Source: Calditrichota bacterium
GTDB lineage: Bacteria; CLD3
Assembly: GCA_008501735.1 (NCBI GenBank)
Contig: QQUF01000040.1
Coordinates: 124,001-188,000 of the forward strand
DNA length: 64,000 bases
Direction: 5' to 3'
Position 1 is the first letter of the stretch. Each line of letters opens with the position of its first letter. A model generated the notes under the pieces. That model did not search any database, was not told where the DNA came from, and saw nothing but the letters and a program-made list of their open reading frames with translations. A program made the translations under genes and the position numbers. Of the stretch, positions 41,889-58,710 are shown in pieces.

Positions 41889-41922
41889 GAAAATGGCAAA
41901 AAGACTAAGTTTTTGATTAGGA
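41889..41922 (+). pseudogene. Remnant copy of the metallophosphoesterase C-terminal codons
   Basis: This segment repeats 40967-41002 and still encodes ENGKKTKFLIRK exactly; the differences seen (AAG to AAA, TTC to TTT) are synonymous third-position changes. It overlaps the 3' end of cusA by a few bases. It looks like the last piece of a duplicated metallophosphoesterase gene, the rest of which has been lost. Confidence 0.6.
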
Positions 41923-44900
41923 AGTTAGTCTAATTTCTTTAATCCACGAATACAAAACAGGTACAACAAAAAGTGTAACCAATGCAATTACCATTCCGCC
42001 GAAAGATGGAATTGCCATTGGAACCATAATGTCTGAACCTCTTCCAGTACTTGTCAAAATAGGAATTAAAGCCAAAAGTGTTGTTGCAGTTGTCATCAAA
42101 CAAGGTCTGATTCTGCGTTTTCCTGCTTCCAAAACTAAGTCTCGAATTTGTTGTTTTGTGAGATTCGCTTTGTCTTTGAAAGATTGCTCTAAATAAGTTG
42201 CCATCACAACTCCGTCGTCGGTTGCGATTCCAAAAAGTGCGATGAAACCAACCCAAACGGCAACTGAAAGATTTACAGGGAAAATGTTAAAGACTTCTCG
42301 CAAGTTGAAGCCCAAGAGTGAGAAGTTCAAAAACCAACTTTGGTCGTAAAGCCAAATCATCAAAAAACCACCTGACCAAGCAACTAAAATTCCACTAAAA
42401 ACCAACGCAGTAGTGGAAACTGACTTAAACTGAAAGTAAAGAATTAGAAAAATTATGAAAAGTGCAAGTGGCAAAACAACGGCAAGTTTTTTCTCCGAAC
42501 GAATTTGGTTTTCATAATTTCCTGCAAACTTGTAAGAAACGCCGTCAGGAACAATCAACTCACCACTTCTAATTTTACCTTTAAGAAATTCATCAGCTTC
42601 TTCAACAACTTCGACTTCTGCAAATCCGTCTTTTTTGTCCAAAAGAACGTAGCCGACAAGGAAAGTATCTTCGGATTTTATGACTTGCGGACCTCTTACG
42701 TATTCCACTGATGCGAGTTGGATTAGTGGAATTTGAACACCTTCGGGAGTTGGAACTAAAATCTTTCCAAGTGATTCGATGTCGTCTCGAAGTTCTCTTT
42801 GGTAACGAACTCGAATCGGATAACGTTCACGCCCTTCAACTGAAGTTGTGATTGTTTTTCCACCAATGGCAACTTCAATCACATTTTGAACTTGCCTGAT
42901 TGAAATTCCGTAACGAGCAATTTCGTCTCTGTCAATTCGGATTTCCAAGTAAGGTTTTCCAACAATTCTGTCAGCGAAAACAGAAGCAGGTTCAACGGAA
43001 GGAACTTCTTTTAGTAATTTTTCAAGCTCAAGTCCAAACCTTTCGATTGTCTCTAAATTTGGACCTTTGACTTTAATTCCGATTGGAGCTCTCATTCCAC
43101 TTTGTAACATCACAATTCTTGCTGCAATTGGTTGTAACTTCGGTGCAGAAGTTGTACCGGGAATTTTGGCAACTTTTACAATTTCTTTCCAAATATCATC
43201 AGGAGATTTTATTTCGGGTCGCCAATTTCTGAAAGGAAGTCCGTCTTCATTTTCAATCAAATTTTCTTCTGAATCGCGTTCGTATTCTCCATTTTCAAAT
43301 TTATAATTAATCTTATTGCCGTTTTTGTCAACATTGTATTCGGGTTTATAATTTACAATTGTTTCAACCATCGAAATTGGAGCTGGGTCAAGAGGTGAAT
43401 CAGCTCTTCCAAGTTTTCCTACCACTAATTCTACTTCTGGAACAGACTTGATTTGTTTGTCTAATTTCTGAATGACATCTAAAGCTTCTCCGATTGAAGC
43501 GTGAGGCATTGTTGTTGGCATAAAAAGATAAGAACCTTCGTCAAGTGAAGGCATAAATTCCTTGCCAAGACCAGGAAATTCGTGAATTATTGTTGAGTAA
43601 ATTTTATTCTCTTTTGCAAAATTTGGAATAATTTTCCCAACTGTTTTCTCTACTCCAAGCCAAACCATAAATCCGCTTAGAACAATTCCTGACACTAAAA
43701 TCAAAAATTTTGATTTGTTCTCAAGTGTCCAAAAAAGAAGGTTCGGGTAAATTCTAATGAAATATTTAAAAAGAAATAAAACACCAAAAATCAAAATTCC
43801 GACAAAAAGTAAATTCAATAAAATTCCTGCTTCGACTCCAAGAGGAAGCCAATGTTTAGTCAAAAAATAAACAACAAGTGAAATTGCAAAAATATTTACT
43901 GCCAATGAGGAATGTTCTGCCACTACTTTTGGTAATTTAGACTCAAAAATTTTGTAAAGCCCGAAAGTTATTAAAATTAACCCAAGTAAAATACTTAGTG
44001 TTACTAAAGAATAAATTCCAAGCAGAACAAGAATTCCATTTAAAGACTTTTTCAAAGAATCAGACTTAATTTTTCCTGTAAAAAGTAGTTGTGCAAAAGG
44101 TGGAATCATTGTCAAAGCAACAATCACAGAAGCGATGAGTGCAAAAGTTTTAGTGTAAGCAAGTGGTCTGAATAGCTTTCCTTCTGCGGCTTCCATTGTG
44201 AAAATTGGTAAAAATGAAATTACTGTTGTTGCTATTGCAGTCAGAATTGCTGAGCCAACTTCACTTGTAGCTTTAAAAATCACCTCAAGTTTATTGTCGT
44301 TTTCTTCTGATTTTTCGAGATGTCGAAGAATGTTTTCAGTTACGACAATTCCCATATCGACCATTGTTCCTATTGCAATTGCGATTCCAGAAAGTGCGAC
44401 AATGTTCGCCTCAATGTCAAATAGTTTCATTCCGATAAAACACATTAAAACTGCAATCGGCAAAAGTAAAGAAATTAAAATTGAAGAATAAAAATGTCCA
44501 ACCATTACTAATATTACAATGATTGTTACCAAGATTTCTTCGGTAAGAGCAGAATTTAGAGTTCCAAGAGTTTCGTTAATTAGACCAGTTCTGTCATAAA
44601 AAGGAACAATTTTTACTTTTGAAACTGTTCCGTCAGAAAGTGTTTTTTGTGGTAATCCAGTTTCGATTTCACTGATTTTCTGTTTAACATTTTTTATAAC
44701 TTCGAGCGGATTTCCGCCGTAACGAGTAACGACAACTCCTCCAACTGCTTCTGCTCCTTCTTTGTCCAAAATTCCACGTCGAAGAGCTGGACCTAAGTTT
44801 ACAGTTGCAATGTCTTTGATTAGAATCGGAACATTTTCGTTAGATTTTATTACGGTTTTTTCCAAATCTTCAAGAGATTTTATGTAGCCAACTCCACGAA

Positions 44901-45645
44901 TGACGTATTCAACTTGGTTAATTTCAATTGTTTTTGCACCAACGTCAACGTTTGAATTTCGGATTGCGGTGTAAACTTCATTCAAGTTTACATTAAAATT
45001 TCTCATTGCATCTGGGTCAACGTCAATTTGGTATTCTTTGACAAATCCTCCAACCGAAGCAACTTCTGCAACTCCTTCCGCTGAACTTAGTGCGTAACGA
45101 ACGTAGTAATCCTGAATAGAACGCAATTCGTGTAAATCCCAACCTCCAGTTACATTTCCATTTTCGTCTTGACCTTCCAAAGTGTACCAAAAAACTTGTC
45201 CAAGTGGAGTTGCGTCAGGTCCCAGAGTTGGTGAAACATTTTCGGGTAAAGTTCCTTTGGGTAAAGAATTTAATTTTTCCAAAACTCTTGAACGAGACCA
45301 GTAAAATTCCACGTCCTCTTTGAAAATCAAATAAATCGAAGAAAAGCCAAACATCGAAAATGAGCGTATTGATTTAACTCCGGGAATTCCAAGTAAAGCA
45401 GTTGTGAGTGGATAAGAAATTTGGTCTTCTACGTCTTGAGGAGATTTCCCTTTCCATTCTGTAAAAATGATTTGTTGATTTTCTCCAATGTCAGGAATCG
45501 CATCAACTCTTACAGGATTTCTTGGAAGGATTCCTAAATCGTAGTCGAAAGGAGCAACAATTAATCCCCAAGCAATTGTGAAAAGCAGTAAAAGAATTAC
45601 TACTAATTTATTTTCAAGGCAAAATCTGATTAATTTATCTAACAT
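41917..45645 (-). CDS. cusA: CusA/CzcA-family heavy-metal efflux RND transporter
   Basis: A 1242-aa RND pump: FDYDLGILPRNPVRVDAIPDIGENQQIIFTEW at the start, TMVDMGIVVTENILRHLE in helix 4 region, SLDEGSYLFMPTTMPHASIGEALDVI in the second porter domain and ATDDGVVMATYLEQSF near the end. It moves metal from the periplasm or cytosol out through a TolC channel. It is about 200 residues longer than E. coli CusA; the extra part is a hydrophobic block (about 530-640) with several added helices, seen also in other Bacteroidota CusA-like pumps. CusB ends 4 bp upstream; Cu(I)/Ag(I) specificity is inferred from the neighbouring P1B-1 ATPase. Confidence 0.93.
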   Translation of the reverse strand: MLDKLIRFCLENKLVVILLLLFTIAWGLIVAPFDYDLGILPRNPVRVDAIPDIGENQQIIFTEWKGKSPQDVEDQISYPLTTALLGIPGVKSIRSFSMFGFSSIYLIFKEDVEFYWSRSRVLEKLNSLPKGTLPENVSPTLGPDATPLGQVFWYTLEGQDENGNVTGGWDLHELRSIQDYYVRYALSSAEGVAEVASVGGFVKEYQIDVDPDAMRNFNVNLNEVYTAIRNSNVDVGAKTIEINQVEYVIRGVGYIKSLEDLEKTVIKSNENVPILIKDIATVNLGPALRRGILDKEGAEAVGGVVVTRYGGNPLEVIKNVKQKISEIETGLPQKTLSDGTVSKVKIVPFYDRTGLINETLGTLNSALTEEILVTIIVILVMVGHFYSSILISLLLPIAVLMCFIGMKLFDIEANIVALSGIAIAIGTMVDMGIVVTENILRHLEKSEENDNKLEVIFKATSEVGSAILTAIATTVISFLPIFTMEAAEGKLFRPLAYTKTFALIASVIVALTMIPPFAQLLFTGKIKSDSLKKSLNGILVLLGIYSLVTLSILLGLILITFGLYKIFESKLPKVVAEHSSLAVNIFAISLVVYFLTKHWLPLGVEAGILLNLLFVGILIFGVLFLFKYFIRIYPNLLFWTLENKSKFLILVSGIVLSGFMVWLGVEKTVGKIIPNFAKENKIYSTIIHEFPGLGKEFMPSLDEGSYLFMPTTMPHASIGEALDVIQKLDKQIKSVPEVELVVGKLGRADSPLDPAPISMVETIVNYKPEYNVDKNGNKINYKFENGEYERDSEENLIENEDGLPFRNWRPEIKSPDDIWKEIVKVAKIPGTTSAPKLQPIAARIVMLQSGMRAPIGIKVKGPNLETIERFGLELEKLLKEVPSVEPASVFADRIVGKPYLEIRIDRDEIARYGISIRQVQNVIEVAIGGKTITTSVEGRERYPIRVRYQRELRDDIESLGKILVPTPEGVQIPLIQLASVEYVRGPQVIKSEDTFLVGYVLLDKKDGFAEVEVVEEADEFLKGKIRSGELIVPDGVSYKFAGNYENQIRSEKKLAVVLPLALFIIFLILYFQFKSVSTTALVFSGILVAWSGGFLMIWLYDQSWFLNFSLLGFNLREVFNIFPVNLSVAVWVGFIALFGIATDDGVVMATYLEQSFKDKANLTKQQIRDLVLEAGKRRIRPCLMTTATTLLALIPILTSTGRGSDIMVPMAIPSFGGMVIALVTLFVVPVLYSWIKEIRLTS

Positions 45646-45649
45646 TTTA

Positions 45650-47500
45650 TTACTCGATTTTTTCTAAAATTTCACCGCAACTGAACATTCTTGAGCCAAA
45701 ATAAGGATTTTCAATTTCACTTCTTTCAGCTAACCAAGTTGCACCTTTGTTTCCAAAAGCCATTGGACATTTTGCAATAAAAACAACATTCTCAGCACCA
45801 AACATTTTTACAATTTTCGTTATTGTTTGGGAGAAAGGGGAAAAATATTTTCTTTGAGTTTCTAAGTCTTCTGAGTGAGAAAAGTGTTCTGAATCTTTGC
45901 GAAGTTGAGCAATTAAATTAAACCACTTTGTTCGATTAAGTTTATCCAAAAGTTCAATGTTGCAATCTTCAAAATCTGCCAAAATATTCTTTGCTAAATG
46001 TTTAGAGTGTTTGCTTTGGTCTTTGGAAAGTGCTTTTTGTAACGAAAAGTAAGATTCCAAAGAAATTGAGATTTGTTTGCGAAATTCTAAAGGAGAGTTC
46101 GCATTTAAAGTTTCAGACCTGACAGGTTTTAAAAACCTGTCAGGTCTATTTTCACTCATCATACTTGGTTTGGCAACGATTTGGAGAGCAGAGTCAATTT
46201 TGAAAGCACCGTTTGTAACAACTTCTTCGCCTTCTTGTAATCCATTTTTAATTACATAAAAATCTCCTGCACGAACTCCGAGATTTACTTCTCTTCCTTC
46301 AAAAGTTGGTTCATTTTTATTTGTAACTTTAACGTAAACTATTGCTCTTTTACCTGTAATCAAAACTGCTGATTTAGGGACAACCAAAGGTGCGTGAGTT
46401 TTTTGTTCTTTGTCAGCGAATCCCAATTTTTCTGCTTTTACTAAACTCATTCCACAGATGTCGCAATTCCCGGGATTGTTTTTAACGATTTCAGGATGCA
46501 TCGGAGAAATCCATTTTCCTTCAAGGGAATTCTCGATGACTGAACCGTCTTCTGTAACTGTTGCTTTCAAAGTTGCTTTCACAAACATTTCAGGTTTTAA
46601 TTTTTCGTCTTTGTTCACAACATTGAGGCGAACTTTTACAGTTCGTGTTTTTGGATTTAAAGTCGGTTCGATGAATGCAACTCTTCCTGTAAAAACTTCA
46701 CTTGGGAACGCCGTTACACTAAATTCGACTTTTTGTCCGTAGTGTAAAAATTGTAAATCGGATTCGTAAGCATCAAGAAAAACCCAGACTTTTGAAAAAT
46801 CTGCAATTTGGTAAAGTGGAGAACCTTCTTTGACGTAAATTCCTTCCGTTGCACTTTTGTGAATCACAATTCCGTCAATTTCAGAATTAACAATTAAGTT
46901 TTGTTTTACTTTTTTAGTCTTTTCAAGTTCTTGAATTTGTTCAGAACTTACACCGAGAATCTCAAGTTTCTTTCGTGCCGATTTCTTTTGACTTTCAGAA
47001 TTAGCGAATTGAAATGTTTGTAAAAATTCCTCTTGAGCAGAGACGAGTTCAGGACTGTAAATTTCTACCAAATGGTCACCTTTTCGCACTCGGACTCCAG
47101 TGTAGTCAACAAAAAGTCTTTCAAGTCTGCCGTTAGTCCAAGCGGAAATAGTTTTGACTTTGGTTTCATCGAGGACGATTTTTCCAACCATTCGGACTTC
47201 AACATCAACAAATTTTCTTTCAATTTTTGTTGTTTGTATTTCTGCAAGTTTCATCGCCGATTCGGACATTTTGATTTCTCTTTCATTGCCTTCTTCGGAA
47301 GTGTCTTCAACAAGCGGAATCAAATCCATTCTACAAATCGGGCAAAGTCCCGGTTTAGGTAAACGAACTTGTGGATGCATTGAACAAGTCCAAATTGTTG
47401 TGTTTGTTATTGAATCAGTTTCTGTTTGTGAGTGGTTGTGTTCTTCTTTTTTCTCACCACAAGCAACGAGAAACATCAAAAAAATTATTAAAATCTTCAT
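45650..47500 (-). CDS. cusB: CusB-like RND adaptor with two heavy-metal-binding domains and DUF3347
   Basis: A 616-aa periplasmic adaptor lipoprotein (signal ends FLVAC). Order: an HMBD zinc-ribbon-like motif (WTCSMHPQV...CPICRMDLIPL, about 34-60), the adaptor hairpin/lipoyl/barrel region (about 75-315), a second HMBD (WISPMHPEI...CDICGMSLVKAE, about 330-360) inserted before the membrane-proximal domain, and a C-terminal DUF3347 domain (about 470-616, ending in FIAKCPMAF and MFSCGEI). The Cys and Met-rich sites fit Cu/Ag capture and delivery to CusA. A palindromic element is embedded in frame at about residues 452-462, in the linker before DUF3347. Confidence 0.92.
   Translation of the reverse strand: MKILIIFLMFLVACGEKKEEHNHSQTETDSITNTTIWTCSMHPQVRLPKPGLCPICRMDLIPLVEDTSEEGNEREIKMSESAMKLAEIQTTKIERKFVDVEVRMVGKIVLDETKVKTISAWTNGRLERLFVDYTGVRVRKGDHLVEIYSPELVSAQEEFLQTFQFANSESQKKSARKKLEILGVSSEQIQELEKTKKVKQNLIVNSEIDGIVIHKSATEGIYVKEGSPLYQIADFSKVWVFLDAYESDLQFLHYGQKVEFSVTAFPSEVFTGRVAFIEPTLNPKTRTVKVRLNVVNKDEKLKPEMFVKATLKATVTEDGSVIENSLEGKWISPMHPEIVKNNPGNCDICGMSLVKAEKLGFADKEQKTHAPLVVPKSAVLITGKRAIVYVKVTNKNEPTFEGREVNLGVRAGDFYVIKNGLQEGEEVVTNGAFKIDSALQIVAKPSMMSENRPDRFLKPVRSETLNANSPLEFRKQISISLESYFSLQKALSKDQSKHSKHLAKNILADFEDCNIELLDKLNRTKWFNLIAQLRKDSEHFSHSEDLETQRKYFSPFSQTITKIVKMFGAENVVFIAKCPMAFGNKGATWLAERSEIENPYFGSRMFSCGEILEKIE
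46115..46147. repeat. In-frame palindromic element inside cusB
   Basis: 15-bp perfect arms AGACCTGACAGGTTT/AAACCTGTCAGGTCT around TAA: 33 bp, a multiple of three, encoding residues in the linker before DUF3347. A close relative (CCTGAAAGGTTT arms) lies in intergenic DNA at 60486-60516. Confidence 0.75.
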
Positions 47501-47512
47501 TGTTTTAACTTT

Positions 47513-48742
47513 TTAGTTTGTAATCATTTTTAGTTTTGCTAATGAAATTGCTTTTTTAGTTTTCGCCATTTCAAGGTTTAGTTCAAATTCGAGAAGAGTT
47601 TTTTGTGCGTCAATTAAATTCAAAAAATCAAGTTTCCCGTTTTGGTAAGCCGTTTTGGTAACCTCAAGGTTTTGCTTTTCTTTTGGAATTAAAGTATTTT
47701 CGTAAAGTGTAATTTTTCTTTCTGAATCTTCAATTTCAAAGAAAAGTGATTCTGTTTCAAATTCAAATTTGTTCAATTGATTTTGTTTTTTTTGCTCAAC
47801 TGAATTTTGTCTAAACTTTGATTCACGGACTTTTGCAGAATATTTCTCACGCCAAATCGGAACGCTAATTCCAAACATTAACATCAAAGGGTCTTTTCCG
47901 TCGTCTTTTAACTGAGTCGTTCCTGATTCTGTAAAAGCGTAATCGATTCCAAAAGTGAAGTTTGGGTAAAAATCTTTTTCTGAAAGTTTGGTTTTGGCTT
48001 TTTCTTTTTCAACCAAAAATTCTAAAGACTTGATGTTTGGATTTTGCAAAATCTCTGTTTTAAGTAGTTCCTTGTTCAAAGTTAGATTCTCAAAAACAAG
48101 TTTTACTTCTGGTAAAATGGCATTTGAAGAACGGTTTAAAAGGAAATTCAAGTTTGCTTGTCTAACTTTAAGCAGTTGGTTTAAAGTTTTGATTCTGTCT
48201 TTCAATTTCTCAATTTGAATTTCAGTTTGGATTAGATTCGCAAAACTTGTTTTGTTGTTTTCATACTTTGATTTTGTAACCGTAAGAATGTCTTCAAGCA
48301 AAAGCAAATTTTCTTGTGAGATTTTGATTTGAATCTGTGAGAAATAAAGTTCAAAGTAAGCCTTTTTCACTTCAAAAAATAGCTTAACCTTTTCCCAGTC
48401 AAGTTCTTGTTTTAAAGATTCAGCTTCTTTTAAAACAACTTTTTCAGCAAGGTCAAGTTTACCGAAAAACGGGAATTTTTGACTCAAACTAAGTTTTGCT
48501 TTTTGAGGTCCGACTTTGGTTTCTACTTCTTTGACAAAGTATGAAAAACTCAAAGTTGGGTCAGGTAAGGAACCGACTTGTGGAACTCTTTCAAGACTTG
48601 CTTTCCACGAATGGAATTTTGCTTTTAGAGAAGGGTTGTTTTCAGCTGAAAATTCCAAAAGTTCTTGTAAAGTTGAGTTTTGTGAGATTTCCTGCCCAAA
48701 TAAATTTAATGGGATTAGAAGGATTAAAATTATGAGAAACAT
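47513..48742 (-). CDS. cusC: TolC-family outer-membrane efflux protein
   Basis: A 409-aa TolC-like channel with a signal peptide (FLIILILLIPLNLFG). Two homologous halves of long helices are visible, with LGLEFSAENNPSLKA-type first repeat starts and PDPTLSFSY; the second repeat has QNPNIKSLEFLVEKEKAKTKLSEKDFYPNFTFGIDY. It should form the outer-membrane exit duct for the CusA/CusB pump and heads that operon (12 bp before cusB). A sigma-54-like promoter lies 35-52 bp upstream, with palindromic operators 100-150 bp upstream. Confidence 0.9.
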   Translation of the reverse strand: MFLIILILLIPLNLFGQEISQNSTLQELLEFSAENNPSLKAKFHSWKASLERVPQVGSLPDPTLSFSYFVKEVETKVGPQKAKLSLSQKFPFFGKLDLAEKVVLKEAESLKQELDWEKVKLFFEVKKAYFELYFSQIQIKISQENLLLLEDILTVTKSKYENNKTSFANLIQTEIQIEKLKDRIKTLNQLLKVRQANLNFLLNRSSNAILPEVKLVFENLTLNKELLKTEILQNPNIKSLEFLVEKEKAKTKLSEKDFYPNFTFGIDYAFTESGTTQLKDDGKDPLMLMFGISVPIWREKYSAKVRESKFRQNSVEQKKQNQLNKFEFETESLFFEIEDSERKITLYENTLIPKEKQNLEVTKTAYQNGKLDFLNLIDAQKTLLEFELNLEMAKTKKAISLAKLKMITN

Positions 48743-48776: not shown

Positions 48777-48794
48777 TTCCAAGTTTCGTGCCAA
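48777..48794 (-). promoter_or_regulatory. Sigma-54-like promoter of the cusCBA operon
   Basis: Minus strand reads TTGGCACGAAACTTGGAA: TGGCAC, 5-nt spacer, TTGG. The -24 GG and the spacing match; the -12 dinucleotide is GG rather than the consensus GC. The transcript would start about 12 nt downstream, leaving a short leader before cusC. The same architecture recurs at 52052-52069. Confidence 0.6.
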
Positions 48795-48842
48795 AAAGAT
48801 AAACCGTTTTAATGAAGATTAGCAATGATTTTTGAAAACAAG

Positions 48843-48892
48843 TGTAGAATATTCTCCACTTGGTGTAGAGATTAATGTGGAATATTCTAAAC
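48843..48892. promoter_or_regulatory. Tandem operators (GAATATTC palindromes) upstream of cusC
   Basis: Two clear sites, TGTAGAATATTCTCCA (48843-48858) and TGTGGAATATTCTAAA (48877-48892), with a degenerate TGTAGA half-site between them at 48864. They lie 50-100 bp upstream of the sigma-54-like promoter, the usual position of enhancer sites for an NtrC-type activator, and directly after the copA stop codon. Confidence 0.65.
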
Positions 48893-51019
48893 TCAAATTA
48901 TCATTTTCTTAAGTCTAAGCGAATTTAGAATAACTGAGACAGAACTAAAGCTCATTGCAGCTGCCGCAATCATTGGACTTAGAAGAATTCCAAAAAAAGG
49001 ATAAAAAATTCCTGCCGCAATTGGAATTCCAAGAGCATTGTAAAAAAAAGCAAAAAATAAATTTTGTTTAATGTTTGACACTGTTTGGTGACTCAAATGT
49101 CTTGCTTGTAAAATCCCTCTTAAATCACCTTTTACCAAAGTTATTCCTGCACTTTCCATCGCAACATCTGTTCCTGTTCCCATTGCGATTCCAACCTGAG
49201 CTTGTGCTAAAGCTGGAGCATCATTAATTCCATCTCCTGACATTGCAACAATTGCATTTTCATTTTGTAATTTTTTGACAATTTCAGCCTTTTGATGAGG
49301 TAAAACACCACCAATAACATTGCTAATTCCAAGTTTTTGTGCAACCGTTTCAGTTGTTGTCTGACTATCTCCTGAAAGTAAAACAATTTTTATCCCTTCA
49401 TCTTGTAAACCTTTTATTGCCTCAACAGTTGTATCTTTGATTGGGTCAATTATCCCAATAATTCCACTAATTAATGAATCAATTCCAATTAGAATTACAG
49501 TTTGCCCGTCTTTTCTTAAAGTTTCGATTTCCTCATTGAAATCGCTGAAATCAATTTTGAAATCAATCATTAGTTGCTCATTTCCAAGCAAAACAACAGA
49601 GTTATTGACTTTGCCTTTGATTCCTTTACCTGTAAATGATTCAAAATCAGTGGCATTTGTAATCTGGATTCCTCTTTCTTTTGCTCCTTGAATAATTGCT
49701 TCGGCTAAAGGGTGTTCACTTCCTTTTTCCAAACTTGCAGTCATTTTTAGAAGGTATTCTTCATCTATATTTTTGACAGTTCTCACAGTAATTAACTTGG
49801 GCTTTCCTTCTGTAAGAGTTCCTGTTTTATCGACAACAATTGTATCGACTTTACGCATAATTTCAATAGCTTCGGCATTTTTGAACAAAATTCCTTTTGT
49901 TGCACCTTTTCCTGTACCAACCATAATTGACATTGGAGTTGCAAGACCTAATGCACAAGGGCAAGCAATAATTAAAACCGAAATTGCATTAATCAAAGCA
50001 AAAGCTAAACTTGGCTCAGGTCCCCAAATCGCCCAAATTATAAAAGTAAAAAGAGAAATTAAAATTACCGTTGGGACAAAATAACCTGAAACTGTGTCAA
50101 CAATTTTTTGAATTGGAGCACGACTTCTTTGAGCTTCTGAAACCATCGAAATTATTTTTGAAAGCAAAGTATCAGAGCCAATTTTTTCCGCTTTAATTAT
50201 TAATGAACCTGTTCCATTAATTGTCGCACCAATTACTTTGTTACCAATTTCTTTTTGGACAGGAATTGATTCGCCTGTAACCATTGATTCATCAATTGTA
50301 CTAAGACCTTCAATGACAATTCCATCAACGGGAATTTTTTCTCCCGGTCTTACACGCAAATCATCGTTAATCTTAATTAATTCTAAACTTACTTCCTCTT
50401 CTGAGCCATCAGAATTAATTCTTTTTGCAGTTTTTGGAGCTAAGTCCAACAATTTTTTGATTGCTTGGCTGGTTTGGCTTCGAGCTTTTAATTCAAGAAC
50501 TTGTCCAAGCAAAATTAAAGTAACAATGACTGCACCCGCTTCAAAGTAAACTTCAACTTGACCAAGTTCATTTCGGAAAGAATTAGGGAAAATTTCAGGA
50601 AAAATTGAGGCAACTAAACTGTAAATAAAAGCAATACTTACACCAAGTCCAATTAATGTAAACATATTTAGGCTTTTATTTTTTACGGATTGAATTGCCT
50701 TTTCATAAAATGGAAAAGCTGACCAAGTGGCAATTGGTATTGCAAGAATTAATTCAGTCCAAACCCGAAAGTTCTGAGAGAATAACTGAGAAATTGGCTT
50801 ATTCGGTAACAAATCTCCCATAGCAATTATAAAAATTGGAATTGTTAGTACTGTCGAAAACCAAAACCTTTTCGACATACTTTTAAGTTCCAAATTGTCT
50901 TCATCATCAATACTAATCTCCTTCAATTCCAAATTCATTCCACATTTTGGACAATTTCCAAAAGTTTCCTGTTGAATTTCCGGATGCATAGGACAAGTAT
51001 AAATTTTTTTGTTTGGCAT
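48893..51019 (-). CDS. copA: Copper/silver-translocating P1B-1 ATPase
   Basis: A 708-aa heavy-metal P-type ATPase. An N-terminal HMBD motif ([11 protein letters not shown]...CPKCGMNLE, residues about 7-30) replaces the usual HMA domain, as in SilP-like pumps. Eight helices are expected. [11 protein letters not shown] is the transport-site motif, [12 protein letters not shown] the phosphorylation site, SEHPLAEAI the nucleotide-binding HP site, and [18 protein letters not shown] the hinge. The YN (FFYNALG) and M-x2-S (MSFSSVS) helices define the Cu(I)/Ag(I) class. It exports cytosolic copper to the periplasm, from where CusCBA can expel it. Last gene of the minus-strand group begun by the Met-rich protein. 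Confidence 0.95.
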
Positions 51020-51043
51020 ATCTGCACCTATAGATTAATTGCA

Positions 51044-51556
51044 TTAATGTTTATGGTCGCGTTCTTCCTCGTGTTTATGGTCATCGTGATGAACTGAATC
51101 TTGCTCATTTTGAGTAGTATTAACTCCGTGTCCATAATTAAAAACTAAATTCGCTCCAATGTCTGCACCGTAAATTAATAGAGAAGAAATTATGAGAAGC
51201 GATAAGATGAGAGTTTTCCTAAGGAACTTAATATCATATTTTTGTGATAAAAAAGTTGTGATTGCTGTTAGGACTAAAATTCCACTCATACAAATCATAA
51301 TATCTCTATGAGAATGCACAATATTATGTCCGGGAGCACTGTGTCCGAAAAAATCTGTGTCTTTAAAACCACTCAAAACTGCGATAATTGCCATAAAAGC
51401 TCCTGAATAAATTAACCATTCAGCAAACTTTTTAAACCTTTCATCTTTTTTGAAAATGAAAATAATTTCCATAACTAATGCACCAATTACAAATGCAATT
51501 GGAAAATGCACGAAAATCGGATGGATTGCGTTTATATTTTGAAAACCTTCAAGCAT
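51044..51556 (-). CDS. DUF2231 membrane protein with His-rich tail
   Basis: A 170-aa protein with four hydrophobic helices starting INAIHPIFVHFPIAFVIGALVMEIIFIF, the DUF2231 signature (conserved HP and HFP). The last 35 residues are rich in His, Asp and Glu (VHHDDHKHEEERDHKH), a probable metal-binding tail. DUF2231 proteins often accompany metal or heme membrane proteins; function unsettled. Its position between the Met-rich protein and copA suggests a role in copper handling at the inner membrane. Confidence 0.82.
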   Translation of the reverse strand: MLEGFQNINAIHPIFVHFPIAFVIGALVMEIIFIFKKDERFKKFAEWLIYSGAFMAIIAVLSGFKDTDFFGHSAPGHNIVHSHRDIMICMSGILVLTAITTFLSQKYDIKFLRKTLILSLLIISSLLIYGADIGANLVFNYGHGVNTTQNEQDSVHHDDHKHEEERDHKH

Positions 51557-51579
51557 TGAATTTCTTTATTTTTAAAATA

Positions 51580-51915
51580 TTAGTGTTTGTGGTTGCTGTG
51601 AGTGTCTTTTTCTTTTGAATCAGAATCGTCTTTATGCATCATTCCTTCCATCATTTTCATCATAGTAGAATGCATTTCGCCATCTTTCATCATCATTTTA
51701 CACATTTTCATCATTTCATCTTTTTTGCCGTGCATTGTTTCCATCATTTTGGACATCATTTCCATTCTCATTTCCGGATTTGTGGCAATGTGATTCATTA
51801 CTTGTTCAGTTTTTTTTGAGTCTTTCATTAACTCTTTAACATCGTCTGAACCAGCTTGTAAATTTTGGATTAATGCAAATCCAATTAAGAATGAAACAAA
51901 GATTAATGTTTTCAT
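51580..51915 (-). CDS. Small exported Met/His-rich metal-binding protein
   Basis: The frame extends to 51969, but the ATG at 51915 has a good AGGAG ribosome site and starts a signal peptide (MKTLIFVSFLIGFALIQNLQA). The mature part of about 90 residues is packed with Met, Lys and His (MEMMSKMMETMHGKKDEMMKMCKMMMKDGE, then a C-terminal HSNHKH). Met-rich segments bind Cu(I) and Ag(I) in the periplasm, as in CusF-, CopK- or SilE-like proteins, although this is not homologous to them as far as I can tell. First gene of the DUF2231-copA transcript; its leader holds a hairpin and a sigma-54-like promoter. Confidence 0.78.
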   Translation of the reverse strand: MKTLIFVSFLIGFALIQNLQAGSDDVKELMKDSKKTEQVMNHIATNPEMRMEMMSKMMETMHGKKDEMMKMCKMMMKDGEMHSTMMKMMEGMMHKDDSDSKEKDTHSNHKH

Positions 51916-51982
51916 TTTGAACTCCTGTAAAAGTTTAGTTTTTAGTTTATCAAAATACCACTGAAACATTTTTATTTAAACA

Positions 51983-52019
51983 AAGGCACCTTGGATTTTG
52001 GAAAGAAACAAGGTGCCTT
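51983..52019 (-). promoter_or_regulatory. Leader hairpin in the Met-rich/DUF2231/copA transcript
   Basis: 11-bp perfect arms AAGGCACCTTG/CAAGGTGCCTT with a 15-nt loop. It lies between the predicted sigma-54 start (about 52040) and the ATG at 51915, and on the minus strand is followed by TTTGTTTAAATAAAAA. It may be an attenuator or an mRNA-stabilising 5' structure. Confidence 0.5.
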
Positions 52020-52051
52020 CAAAAAAATGGTTTTGGGAGCGATTAATTTTC

Positions 52052-52069
52052 TTCCAATATTTGTGCCAA
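52052..52069 (-). promoter_or_regulatory. Sigma-54-like promoter of the Met-rich/DUF2231/copA operon
   Basis: Minus strand reads TTGGCACAAATATTGGAA, the same TTGGCAC-N5-TTGGAA pattern as at 48777-48794. The operator palindromes at 52130-52166 lie 60-100 bp upstream. Confidence 0.6.
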
Positions 52070-52129
52070 AATCATTTATAGAAAATTAGTCAAGTAAAAA
52101 GCAAATCATTGTAACTTTAGAGGTCTCAT

Positions 52130-52166
52130 TGGAGAAATAGCTACAACTACTGTTGAATATTCTACA
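52130..52166. promoter_or_regulatory. Operator (GAATATTC palindrome) between copper operon and kinase gene
   Basis: TGTTGAATATTCTACA (52151-52166) is a near-perfect 16-bp palindrome identical in core to those at 48843 and 48877. A degenerate copy, TGGAGAAATAGCTACA, begins 21 bp away at 52130. The site serves the minus-strand promoter as an enhancer and ends 15 bp before the kinase ATG, so it may also control the kinase gene. Confidence 0.65.
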
Positions 52167-53300: not shown

Positions 53301-53639
53301 ATGTTTAAATCAATTTTACTAATCGCTTTAGTTGCGATAGTTTCCGTTTTTTACTCTTGTGCCGATAAGAAGGCAGTTGCTGAAACGACACAAATCAACC
53401 TTCCTTCAATGCAGTGTGAATCTTGCGTGGCAACAATCACGAAAGTTCTAAAATCTGTTGAAGGAGTCGAATCTGTAGAGATTAACCAAGAAACCAAAAT
53501 TGCAAACGTAAGTTTTGACAAGACAAAAACCGAATTGTCAAAATTGGAAACTGCGATTACAAAAGCAGGTTACGATGCAAATGATTCTCAAAAAGACGGA
53601 ACAGCTTACAATAATTTGCCTGAATGTTGTAAAATGTAA
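53301..53639 (+). CDS. HMA-domain lipoprotein (periplasmic metal chaperone-like)
   Basis: A 112-aa lipoprotein: the signal ends in a YSC lipobox (Cys20), followed by a heavy-metal-associated domain with the MQCESCVATITKVL metal site (M-x-C-x2-C) and a beta-alpha-beta fold as in CopZ/MerP. The C-terminus ends in a second cysteine pair (PECCKM). A membrane-anchored Cu(I)-binding chaperone or sensor partner is likely. It follows the kinase gene by 19 bp and is separated from the regulator gene by a terminator hairpin. Confidence 0.9.
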   Translation: MFKSILLIALVAIVSVFYSCADKKAVAETTQINLPSMQCESCVATITKVLKSVEGVESVEINQETKIANVSFDKTKTELSKLETAITKAGYDANDSQKDGTAYNNLPECCKM

Positions 53640-53701: not shown

Positions 53702-55030
53702 ATGAAAATTTTATTAATTGACGACGACAAAAACCTTCTCAAAGTAAACAAAATTCAACTTGAAGATTCAGGTTACAAAGTTATCACAGCAAACGACGGA
53801 CAAGAAGGTCTGAGTGCTTTCAAAAAGTATGAATTCGATTTGATTCTTTGTGATATTCAAATGCCCAAAATGTCGGGTAAAGAAGTTCTTCAAGAAATTA
53901 GAAAGATAAATTCAGAAATTCCATTTATTGTAATTACGGCTTACGGCAGTGTTGACGATTCGATGGAAATGGTTCGTTTTGGTGCAAATGATTACATTCA
54001 AAAGCCTTTTGGAGTCGAAAGGCTGGTTTTTACAATTGAGAAAAATTATCGACTTTCAAGGCTTAACAAAGAGAATAAATTCCTCAAACAAGAACTTAAA
54101 AACAAAGATTTTATTGAATTTAAAAGTGAATCTCCAAAATGTGAATTCATAAAAAATATTATCACAAAAATTAAAGATTCCTCTGCGACAGTTTTAATTA
54201 CAGGTGAAACAGGTGTAGGAAAAGAAATTATCGCAAAAAATATTCACTTCTCGGGCAACAGACAAAACTCTCCTTTTGTGGAAATAAATTGTGCTTCCGT
54301 TCCTGACACTTTAATCGAGTCAGAACTCTTTGGACACGAAAAAGGAGCTTTTACAGGAGCAAATGAAAAGCGAATCGGTAAATTTGAATTTGCCGACAAA
54401 GGCACTATTTTTTTAGATGAGATTGGCGATTTGAAACCTGATTTACAAGCAAAACTCCTGAGAGTTTTACAAGAGAAAAAAATTGAAAGAATTGGCGGTA
54501 ATAAACAGTTAGAAATTGATGTTCGGGTAATTGCCGCAACGCATAGAAATTTATTAGAGCAAATTCCAAAAGGGCTTTTCCGTGAAGACTTATTTTTTCG
54601 ACTGAATGTGATTCCAATTCAAGTTCCGTCACTTCGGGAACGTAAGGAAGATATTTTGCCATTGGCAGAATTTTTCCTAAAAAAATATAATATTTTTAAT
54701 AAAAATTTATTCTTATCCGAAAAATCTAAAAATGAACTGTTGGAGAATATTTGGAAAGGTAATGTGAGAGAATTGGAAAACACAATTGAAAGAGCTGTTT
54801 TACTTTCCGATTCAGAAAATATCGATTTAGGCTCTTATTCGAATGCTTCGATTCCAATTACTGGATTGACAGAATTCCTCCAAACTTCTGAGATGGGACT
54901 TGAAGAAATTGAAATTCAAATCATTAAATCGGCTTTAGAAAAATTTGGTGGAAATAAATCACAAACGGCAAAAGCACTAAAAATTGAAAGACACATCTTA
55001 CTTTACAAACTCAAAAAGTATAAAATTTAA
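53702..55030 (+). CDS. NtrC-family sigma-54-dependent response regulator
   Basis: A 442-aa regulator with the classical three domains. The receiver has the DDD acidic pocket at 8-10, phospho-acceptor Asp51 (LCDIQMPKMSG), TAYG switch and KPF. The AAA+ domain has Walker A GETGVGKE, an intact EKGAFTGANEKR sigma-54 contact loop, Walker B GTIFLDEIGDL and WKGNVRELEN. The C-terminal Fis-type HTH is GGNKSQTAKALKIERHILLYKLKK. Partnered with the upstream kinase, it resembles ZraR/HydG-like systems. The two sigma-54-like promoters on the copper operons and the GAATATTC sites are its likely targets. Confidence 0.95.
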   Translation: MKILLIDDDKNLLKVNKIQLEDSGYKVITANDGQEGLSAFKKYEFDLILCDIQMPKMSGKEVLQEIRKINSEIPFIVITAYGSVDDSMEMVRFGANDYIQKPFGVERLVFTIEKNYRLSRLNKENKFLKQELKNKDFIEFKSESPKCEFIKNIITKIKDSSATVLITGETGVGKEIIAKNIHFSGNRQNSPFVEINCASVPDTLIESELFGHEKGAFTGANEKRIGKFEFADKGTIFLDEIGDLKPDLQAKLLRVLQEKKIERIGGNKQLEIDVRVIAATHRNLLEQIPKGLFREDLFFRLNVIPIQVPSLRERKEDILPLAEFFLKKYNIFNKNLFLSEKSKNELLENIWKGNVRELENTIERAVLLSDSENIDLGSYSNASIPITGLTEFLQTSEMGLEEIEIQIIKSALEKFGGNKSQTAKALKIERHILLYKLKKYKI

Positions 55031-56956: not shown

Positions 56957-56973
56957 TTGGCACTGCTTTTGAA
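56957..56973 (+). promoter_or_regulatory. Sigma-54-like promoter of the T9SS protein gene
   Basis: TTGGCACTGCTTTTGAA: TGGCAC, five-base spacer, TTGAA (consensus TTGCA). It is 58 bp before the ATG at 57031. The -24 part is a full match; the -12 GC is replaced by GA. Confidence 0.45.
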
Positions 56974-57030: not shown

Positions 57031-58710
57031 ATGAAAACTTTAACAAACTTCACAACAACGATTTCACTTTTAGTGGGAATTTTTTCAGCAGCAAACTCAC
57101 AGTCATTAACTTTTAGTGTTGATAATTACACAGGCACAACAACTGCTGGTCCTTTTATGTTTGTAAACACAGAAGGACAAAATGTTTTTGCTTACAAAGA
57201 TTTTGATTGGAAATTTGGTAACGGACCTCAAGGACAAGCTCCAACAAGTTCTTCTTGCACAGCAGAAAACTTGAATGTAGTAGCAGGAACAGGTGGAATA
57301 ACACTTTTTGTAACTGGCTACGATTTAACAAGTTTCCACCACTTAGGAACCGGAGACAAAAGAATTTACTCACACGGAAATGCTACTATCAATCTAAATG
57401 GAAATCCGGTTCTTGTTTTGACAGACTTGGTTTCTGAAGTTACAGTTTCTTATCCACCACCTCACGGAGCAGGAAATTTTGAATCAGGTTTTGGACAAGG
57501 TGTAATTGATGTTGGAGCAAGTGATGCAAATTGGGTTGCTGAGTTAGATCCATTTGGAACAGGAAATGTAGCTTTTGAATTCTCTTCTGTTTCACCGGTT
57601 GAGCAAAACCAAATTGGCTATTACGATTTTAATATCGAAATTAAGCCGATAACTGTAAACCGTCAAATTATTATTAACCAACTTGCAGACGGTAACAACG
57701 AAAATGTGAATATGAATGGAATCGGTTTGGATTTCCAATTTGCAAACGCAACTTTTGGTGGTGGTGGACAAGGAACTAATAATTTATTCGGAATGTTTGT
57801 TCCTGAAGACCCAACAGGCGATTTGCCTGCAGGAATTGAAATGATGAACAATGCTTCTTTCTGGCATCTCGGAACAACAATGTCTTCATTCTCAACTGAA
57901 ATAACTTTTGATTTAACTCAACTTGGAATGGCTTTTGACCAAAATAAAGTTAGAATTTTAAGACGTGCTAATGCAGACTCAGAATGGGAAATTTATAATG
58001 ACATTACAGTTGTCAATGGAACAACTGTTAAAGCTAACAATGTTACAGGTTTTAGTGACTGGAATATCGGGGAAGCAGAAGACGAACCACTTCCTGTAGA
58101 ACTTTCAGCTTTCACAGCACAACAAAATGGCAGAGAAATTCAACTTAATTGGACAACCGCAACTGAGTTAGAAAACAAAGGTTTTGTAATCGAAAGAGCA
58201 ACAAACGGCTTAGAATTTATTGAAATTTCAAGCTATGAAAATAACACAAGTTTAATCGGGCAAGGAAGTGTTAGCCACGAAACTAACTACACTTTTACCG
58301 ACAAAAATGTAAATTTTGGAAACACTTACTCTTACAGATTAATTGACGTTGACTACAATCAAACAAAGAATACAAGTGAAGAAGTCTTTATAAAATTAGT
58401 TTTTGAAAATGAAGAAACAAACAACGCTAAACTTAGCTACGAATTGAAACAAAATTTCCCAAACCCTTTCAACCCAACTACAACAATAAGTTTCTTGATG
58501 AAAAAAGACGGTTTAGCAAAAGTAAGCGTTTACAACATTACAGGACAATTAGTAAAAACTTTAGTTTCAAAAGGATTGGCAAAAGGCGAACACAGTTTGA
58601 CTTGGGACGGAACAGACAATTTCGGACAAAGTGTCGCAAGTGGAATCTACTACTACAAACTTGAAAGCGGAAACTTCACTGACATCAAAAAAATGACACT
58701 ACTCAAATAA
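57031..58710 (+). CDS. Secreted protein with T9SS type A sorting domain
   Basis: A 559-aa exported protein with a signal peptide (TISLLVGIFSAANS). Residues about 25-210 are beta-rich with no obvious family. A middle segment about 350-460 begins LPVELSAFTAQQNGREIQLNWTTATELENKGFVIERA, the fibronectin-like module frequent in T9SS cargo. The last 85 residues open with NFPNPFNPTT and include KVSVYNITGQLVKTL and ASGIYYYKLESG, the type A sorting domain recognised by the type IX secretion system. It will be displayed or released at the cell surface. Function unknown. Its upstream region carries a sigma-54-like promoter and it ends in a terminator. Confidence 0.88.
   Translation: MKTLTNFTTTISLLVGIFSAANSQSLTFSVDNYTGTTTAGPFMFVNTEGQNVFAYKDFDWKFGNGPQGQAPTSSSCTAENLNVVAGTGGITLFVTGYDLTSFHHLGTGDKRIYSHGNATINLNGNPVLVLTDLVSEVTVSYPPPHGAGNFESGFGQGVIDVGASDANWVAELDPFGTGNVAFEFSSVSPVEQNQIGYYDFNIEIKPITVNRQIIINQLADGNNENVNMNGIGLDFQFANATFGGGGQGTNNLFGMFVPEDPTGDLPAGIEMMNNASFWHLGTTMSSFSTEITFDLTQLGMAFDQNKVRILRRANADSEWEIYNDITVVNGTTVKANNVTGFSDWNIGEAEDEPLPVELSAFTAQQNGREIQLNWTTATELENKGFVIERATNGLEFIEISSYENNTSLIGQGSVSHETNYTFTDKNVNFGNTYSYRLIDVDYNQTKNTSEEVFIKLVFENEETNNAKLSYELKQNFPNPFNPTTTISFLMKKDGLAKVSVYNITGQLVKTLVSKGLAKGEHSLTWDGTDNFGQSVASGIYYYKLESGNFTDIKKMTLLK

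Follow-up and report, generated by a model that had tools for sequence, protein, structure and literature searches.

The effectors CusCBA and CopA are switched in response to copper by CusRS and CopRS (OmpR-type) and by CueR (MerR-type), systems that differ from the one described here in regulator class, promoter type and operator. A parallel in layout is offered by the zinc-responsive ZraSR/ZraP system of Escherichia coli. There, an NtrC-type regulator works with its kinase, the promoters are of the sigma-54 type, the regulon is small and clusters about the regulator gene, and a small metal-binding protein, which is secreted, is encoded divergently. The preliminary description of this DNA had regarded enhancer control of CusCBA as unusual, which is only partly right: Nla28 of Myxococcus xanthus binds the promoter of the cusA/cusB operon MXAN989, placing an enhancer-binding protein and a sigma-54-type promoter at copper/silver RND genes (PMC9765219). 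Nla28, however, controls >100 genes as a starvation regulator, through direct repeats of 8-bp half-sites (PMC9765219), whereas here regulator and pump are encoded together and an inverted-repeat site is found at the pump genes only. Because of the Nla28 precedent for control of cusBA, we regard the parts of the present system as known kinds in a new combination. The most novel of them is the atypical -12 element, since the canonical sigma-54 promoter TGGCACG-N4-TTGC(A/T) has the same -24 box and exact spacing but its -12 C is not conserved here.

The window, that is, the whole 64-kb stretch of DNA that was analysed, carries on its minus strand, in transcription order, the genes for a Met-rich protein, a DUF2231 protein, CopA, CusC, CusB and CusA. 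A divergent plus-strand set encodes a sensor kinase, an HMA lipoprotein and an NtrC-type regulator (Table 1). CusA passes the CusA/CzcA family model TIGR00914 (795.8 bits, cut-off 701), and, aligned to E. coli CusA (3t51), it has Met at all three positions of the Met triad (M573/M623/M672, numbered from this alignment with a 7-residue offset). Given this score, the triad and the match of CopA to the copper-ATPase model, the sequence makes Cu(I)/Ag(I) the most likely cargo of the pump. The reading frame of the Met-rich protein extends to 51969, and the MKTLIF start is preceded by a Shine-Dalgarno-like site.

Table 1. Genes, predicted promoters and operator sites of the metal locus (window coordinates)
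Feature	Position	Strand	Basis or remark
cusA, RND copper/silver efflux pump	41917..45645	-	TIGR00914 + 3t51 alignment
cusB, periplasmic adaptor: HMBD heavy-metal-binding domains + DUF3347	45650..47500	-	Pfam
cusC, outer-membrane efflux protein	47513..48742	-	PF02321
sigma-54-type promoter of cusCBA, TTGGCACGAAACTTGGA	48778..48794	-	predicted start G 48768
operator palindrome TGTAGAATATTCTCCA, promoter-proximal upstream site of cusCBA	48843..48858	.	sequence match
operator palindrome TGTGGAATATTCTAAA	48876..48891	.	83 nt from T of TGGCAC (cusCBA)
copA, copper P1B ATPase: CPC motif, N-terminal HMBD	48893..51019	-	TIGR01511 above cut-off + Pfam
DUF2231 membrane protein, His-rich tail	51044..51556	-	PF09990
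Met/His-rich secreted protein	51580..51915	-	start set at MKTLIF
sigma-54-type promoter of Met-rich/DUF2231/copA operon, TTGGCACAAATATTGGA	52053..52069	-	predicted start A 52043
degenerate second operator copy TGGAGAAATAGCTACA	52130..52145	.	9/14; 21 bp off main site 52151
operator palindrome TGTTGAATATTCTACA	52151..52166	.	83 nt from T of TGGCAC (Met-rich operon)
sensor histidine kinase, membrane domain + conserved PHxxQHxHH loop	52181..53281	+	HisKA, HATPase_c
HMA-domain lipoprotein, CxxC, CopZ/MerP-like	53301..53639	+	PF00403
NtrC-type response regulator, presumed activator	53702..55030	+	GAFTGA + Fis-type HTH

Translation and domain matches (PF00072 Response_reg, PF00158 Sigma54_activat of the AAA+ type, and PF02954 HTH_8) bear out the earlier claim that an NtrC-type regulator with an intact GAFTGA loop and its kinase are encoded next to the metal operons, and no other DNA-binding gene was found among the metal genes. 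By the curated ZraR model this regulator is not ZraR (378 bits against a cut-off of 760). The locus also differs from ZraSR/ZraP in that its targets are CusCBA and CopA, in the HMA lipoprotein gene between kinase and regulator, and in the secreted protein, which is Met-rich and has no Pfam match. A ZraPSR-like layout with a copper efflux set as its output is the best reading of this arrangement. The HMA lipoprotein, with a CxxC motif and a C-terminal CC, occupies the same place in a sister genus (L063:13782-14120) and is a possible accessory metal sensor or donor.

Both metal operons share the string TTGGCAC-N5-TTGGA upstream, and the sigma-54-like pattern proposed for them is confirmed. TGGCAC-N5-TTGG occurs at 48793-48779 (-) and 52068-52054 (-), with no third exact copy in the window, and the probability of finding two in the two metal gaps is low (P ~2e-7). 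The predicted start of cusCBA lies 26 nt ahead of the ATG.

The preliminary description had also placed 16-bp palindromes at 48843, 48877 and 52151, with degenerate copies 21 bp away. All three palindromes are present, the middle one at 48876. A fair degenerate copy does lie at 52130, but the cus promoter has only the half-site TGTAGA at that distance, and its true second palindrome is 33 bp off. The window has four copies of GAATATTC (1.1 expected), three of which fall within the 361 bp of intergenic DNA of the two metal gaps (Poisson P ~4e-8). The three metal palindromes are the best 16-mers of the window (13, 13 and 14 of 14 positions; next best 11), a ranking that is descriptive only because the consensus was built from the same three. 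In the whole 4.14-Mb genome, exact TGTNGAATATTCNNCA is found at 48843 and 52151 alone; the one-mismatch tier includes the third metal site, 48876, and the 14 of 14 other matches lie in coding sequence. The expectation that the sites are restricted to metal genes was thus borne out, with the three metal sites the only close non-coding palindromes genome-wide, and we rejected the idea of a scattered repeat because non-coding copies are confined to the metal cluster.

The distance from the proximal end of the palindrome to the T of TGGCAC is 83 nt at both promoters, an identity that had gone unnoticed in the preliminary description. When the two operons were compared, no alignable sequence was found between palindrome and promoter; identical spacing across unrelated intervening sequence therefore means that operator and promoter each place the other. 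Measured from its centre, the palindrome lies ~117 bp upstream of the predicted start, as is usual for enhancers. The 52151 palindrome additionally lies 14 nt ahead of the kinase ATG.

At both promoters the TGGCAC -24 box is exact and the GG-N10-G spacing is kept, but the canonical -12 C (TTGC) is replaced by G, and we therefore file them as a sigma-54 variant rather than as canonical members. This GG had been considered the weakest link of the promoter assignment. Genome-wide counts of TTGGCAC-Nx-TTG for x = 2 to 8 were 4, 14, 9, 29, 10, 4 and 7, with a peak at N5. Among 28 unique N5 sites, some of which come from paralogous genes on contig C38 and are not all independent, 26 are intergenic and ahead of genes; the other two, called coding, lie within ORFs that probably start further downstream than called. 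The base after TTG at these sites is A in 15, G in 5, C in 4 and T in 4, so the G at -12 is no weakness. At 26/28 sites the nucleotide 11 nt downstream of the -12 base was a purine (P ~1.5e-6 before correction), a signal that is independent of site selection and expected for a start site. The sites were chosen by their -24 and TTG letters, and weaker promoter forms fall outside the count. Taken together, spacing, location and base counts led us to reject the view that the -12 GG speaks against sigma-54: a G is normal here because the sigma-54 of this genome needs no C at -12. Beating a reversed-pattern control was rejected as sole proof of a promoter, since non-C matches in Cupriavidus, Pseudomonas, Desulfosarcina and Paenibacillus do the same and all those examined were coding; intergenic location is a useful promoter test.

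The genome has a single rpoN gene (189.5 bits to PF04552), so the concern that it might lack RpoN proved unfounded, and at least 42 enhancer-binding-protein matches. Canonical TGGCAC-N5-TTGCW was found three times against none for the control. Counts in class members G002-G006 were 0-1 (control 1-7), and in ten genomes of other groups 4-17 (control 0-5), the two lowest of which (4 and 5) are Bacteroidota. Some intergenic TTGGCAC-N5-TTG matches were found in class members; in most of them the -12 base is A or T. The RpoN helix that reads the -12 region is MDISTISR in this genome, the sister genome and five class members, and HESTxxR in Klebsiella pneumoniae, Pseudomonas, Cupriavidus, Desulfosarcina and most other genomes. 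Of the helix residues E378 and R383, which cross-link to promoter DNA (PMC5505868), E378 (K. pneumoniae numbering) is now Ile and R383 is kept, in a change of His-Glu to Asp-Ile that we infer to loosen or shift the choice of -12 base. Asp-Ile is also found in a Ferruginibacter genome that still carries a few TTGC sites (4 vs 0), and the effect may therefore be loosening rather than recoding. The chances seem to us evenly divided on whether the sigma-54 of the class changed its -12 specificity, with the near-universal C gone (and A preferred here), together with the helix substitution. Such a lineage-wide change is more novel than the copper regulon. If it occurred, standard consensus searches would miss most sigma-54 promoters despite dozens of enhancer-binding proteins, a concrete reason why the sigma-54 regulons of the lineage would be missed; the -12 rule derived from Pseudomonadota fails in this lineage, and a single RpoN helix position is a testable cause. 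In a class relative (G007), TTGGCACGTTGTTTGAC, with its non-canonical -12, stands 59 nt upstream of a gene that on reading of the sequence resembles that of a NiFe hydrogenase small subunit, a typical target of sigma-54. The motif (one letter shorter at dnaK) also lies upstream of groES, dnaK and hsp20 as TGGCAC-N5-TTG(C/G), suggesting possible sigma-54 heat-shock control in the lineage; these genes are predicted or shown sigma-54 targets in Bacteroidota (PMC12316311).

One other genome of the same family, the metagenome assembly G001 (JADZEA01), has the same kinase-HMA-regulator operon (65% identity for the kinase and 70% for the regulator), and a search among relatives found the kinase sensor domain in this sister genome only. 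Exact TGTNGAATNNTCNACA occurs in it once, as TGTAGAATAATCTACA, in the kinase-HMA gap of the orthologous operon, where base composition predicts 0.28 matches per strand genome-wide and ~3e-5 in the 146-bp gap. Between the two genomes the operator has been conserved, in G001 within the operon of the orthologous regulator. No TGGCAC promoter was found beside the sister palindrome, which therefore looks autoregulatory. The cusA orthologue there (70% identity) is on contig C242, which begins 14 nt before the cusC ATG, so that the upstream promoter region is absent; a search by the 127-bp assembly overlap found no neighbour among ~100 other contigs or stretches of G001. The -24/-12 motif of the present genome was not enriched in G001, and a de novo motif search of ~1 Mb of it gave nothing clear.

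Confined palindromes, exact promoters and the sister-genus operator support the copper/silver regulon with shared promoters and a common operator that had been proposed, and a sigma-54-dependent efflux regulon under the adjacent sensor-regulator pair is, in our judgement, very probable. The DNA itself shows where the sites lie, how they are spaced and confined, that the sister genus has the operator, that rpoN is present and which pump is encoded. From this we infer how metal is sensed, phosphate passed on, the operator bound and transcription started, as follows. Periplasmic Cu/Ag would be sensed by the membrane kinase (52181), which may act with the HMA lipoprotein (53301) and would phosphorylate the 53702 regulator, whose dimers would bind the TGTNGAATATTCNACA palindromes. 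Through DNA looping, its AAA+ ring would open sigma-54 polymerase at TTGGCAC-N5-TTGG ~117 bp downstream, and cusCBA and the Met-rich/DUF2231/copA operon would be switched on together. Tuning of the operon that encodes the regulator is also probable, through the site ahead of the kinase ATG. A lineage without genetics would thereby have a compact copper/silver regulon whose operator, enhancer spacing, promoter and cognate regulator can all be named from the sequence.

The genome encodes >40 enhancer-binding proteins, and a different one could bind the site. The palindromes might thus serve a different factor, a metal-responsive repressor or other regulator, while the 53702 regulator acts elsewhere and the real sigma-54 promoters answer another enhancer-binding protein; the site just before the kinase gene is in a possible repressor position. 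We think this improbable, given that the sister genus has its sole exact palindrome within the orthologous regulator operon and not by copper pumps, that a constant spacing upstream of a sigma-54 promoter is the geometry of an enhancer, and that the metal genes include no other DNA-binding gene.

The two remaining explanations start from the lost -12 C. The TTGGCAC-N5-TTG(A) motif might mark another sigma factor or activator, an idea also favoured by its lack of enrichment in G001 despite rpoN and many enhancer-binding proteins there. It is quite unlikely, however, as the GG-N10-G spacing and perfect TGGCAC box are sigma-54 hallmarks, as a genome with rpoN, this many enhancer-binding proteins and only three canonical sites must use other sites for its sigma-54, and as the groES, dnaK and hsp20 targets agree with Bacteroidota sigma-54 predictions (PMC12316311). 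That the operons have an ordinary primary-sigma promoter and carry the TTGGCAC-N5-TTGG strings by chance or for another use has a very slim probability: sigma-70-like strings do lie nearby, at chance frequency, but the genome-wide N5 peak, the intergenic location, the start-site purine, the paired exact copies in the metal gaps and the equal operator-promoter distance all argue against it.

Several further features were observed. A perfect 12-bp leader hairpin, GAAGGCACCTTG / CAAGGTGCCTTT, lies between the Met-rich operon promoter and the start codon (window 51982-52022, -); it may act in attenuation or stabilise the mRNA, and no second copy was found in the sequence of this genome that was examined. 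A third sigma-54-type promoter of the window, TTGGCACTGCTTTTGAA at 56957-56973 (+), has no GAATATTC operator and stands 58 nt before the gene for a type IX-sorted secreted protein at 57031, as one of a genome-wide set ahead of secreted-protein genes. Contig C38 carries tandem paralogous secreted-protein genes whose products start MKxFTKTLxPxLALSFG, several with their own TTGGCAC-N5-TTG promoter. On contig C31, TTGGCACACGATTTGGA at position 691 is located shortly upstream of an apparent ECF sigma factor gene (MNTVTISNSKEAKFQDLIRPH).
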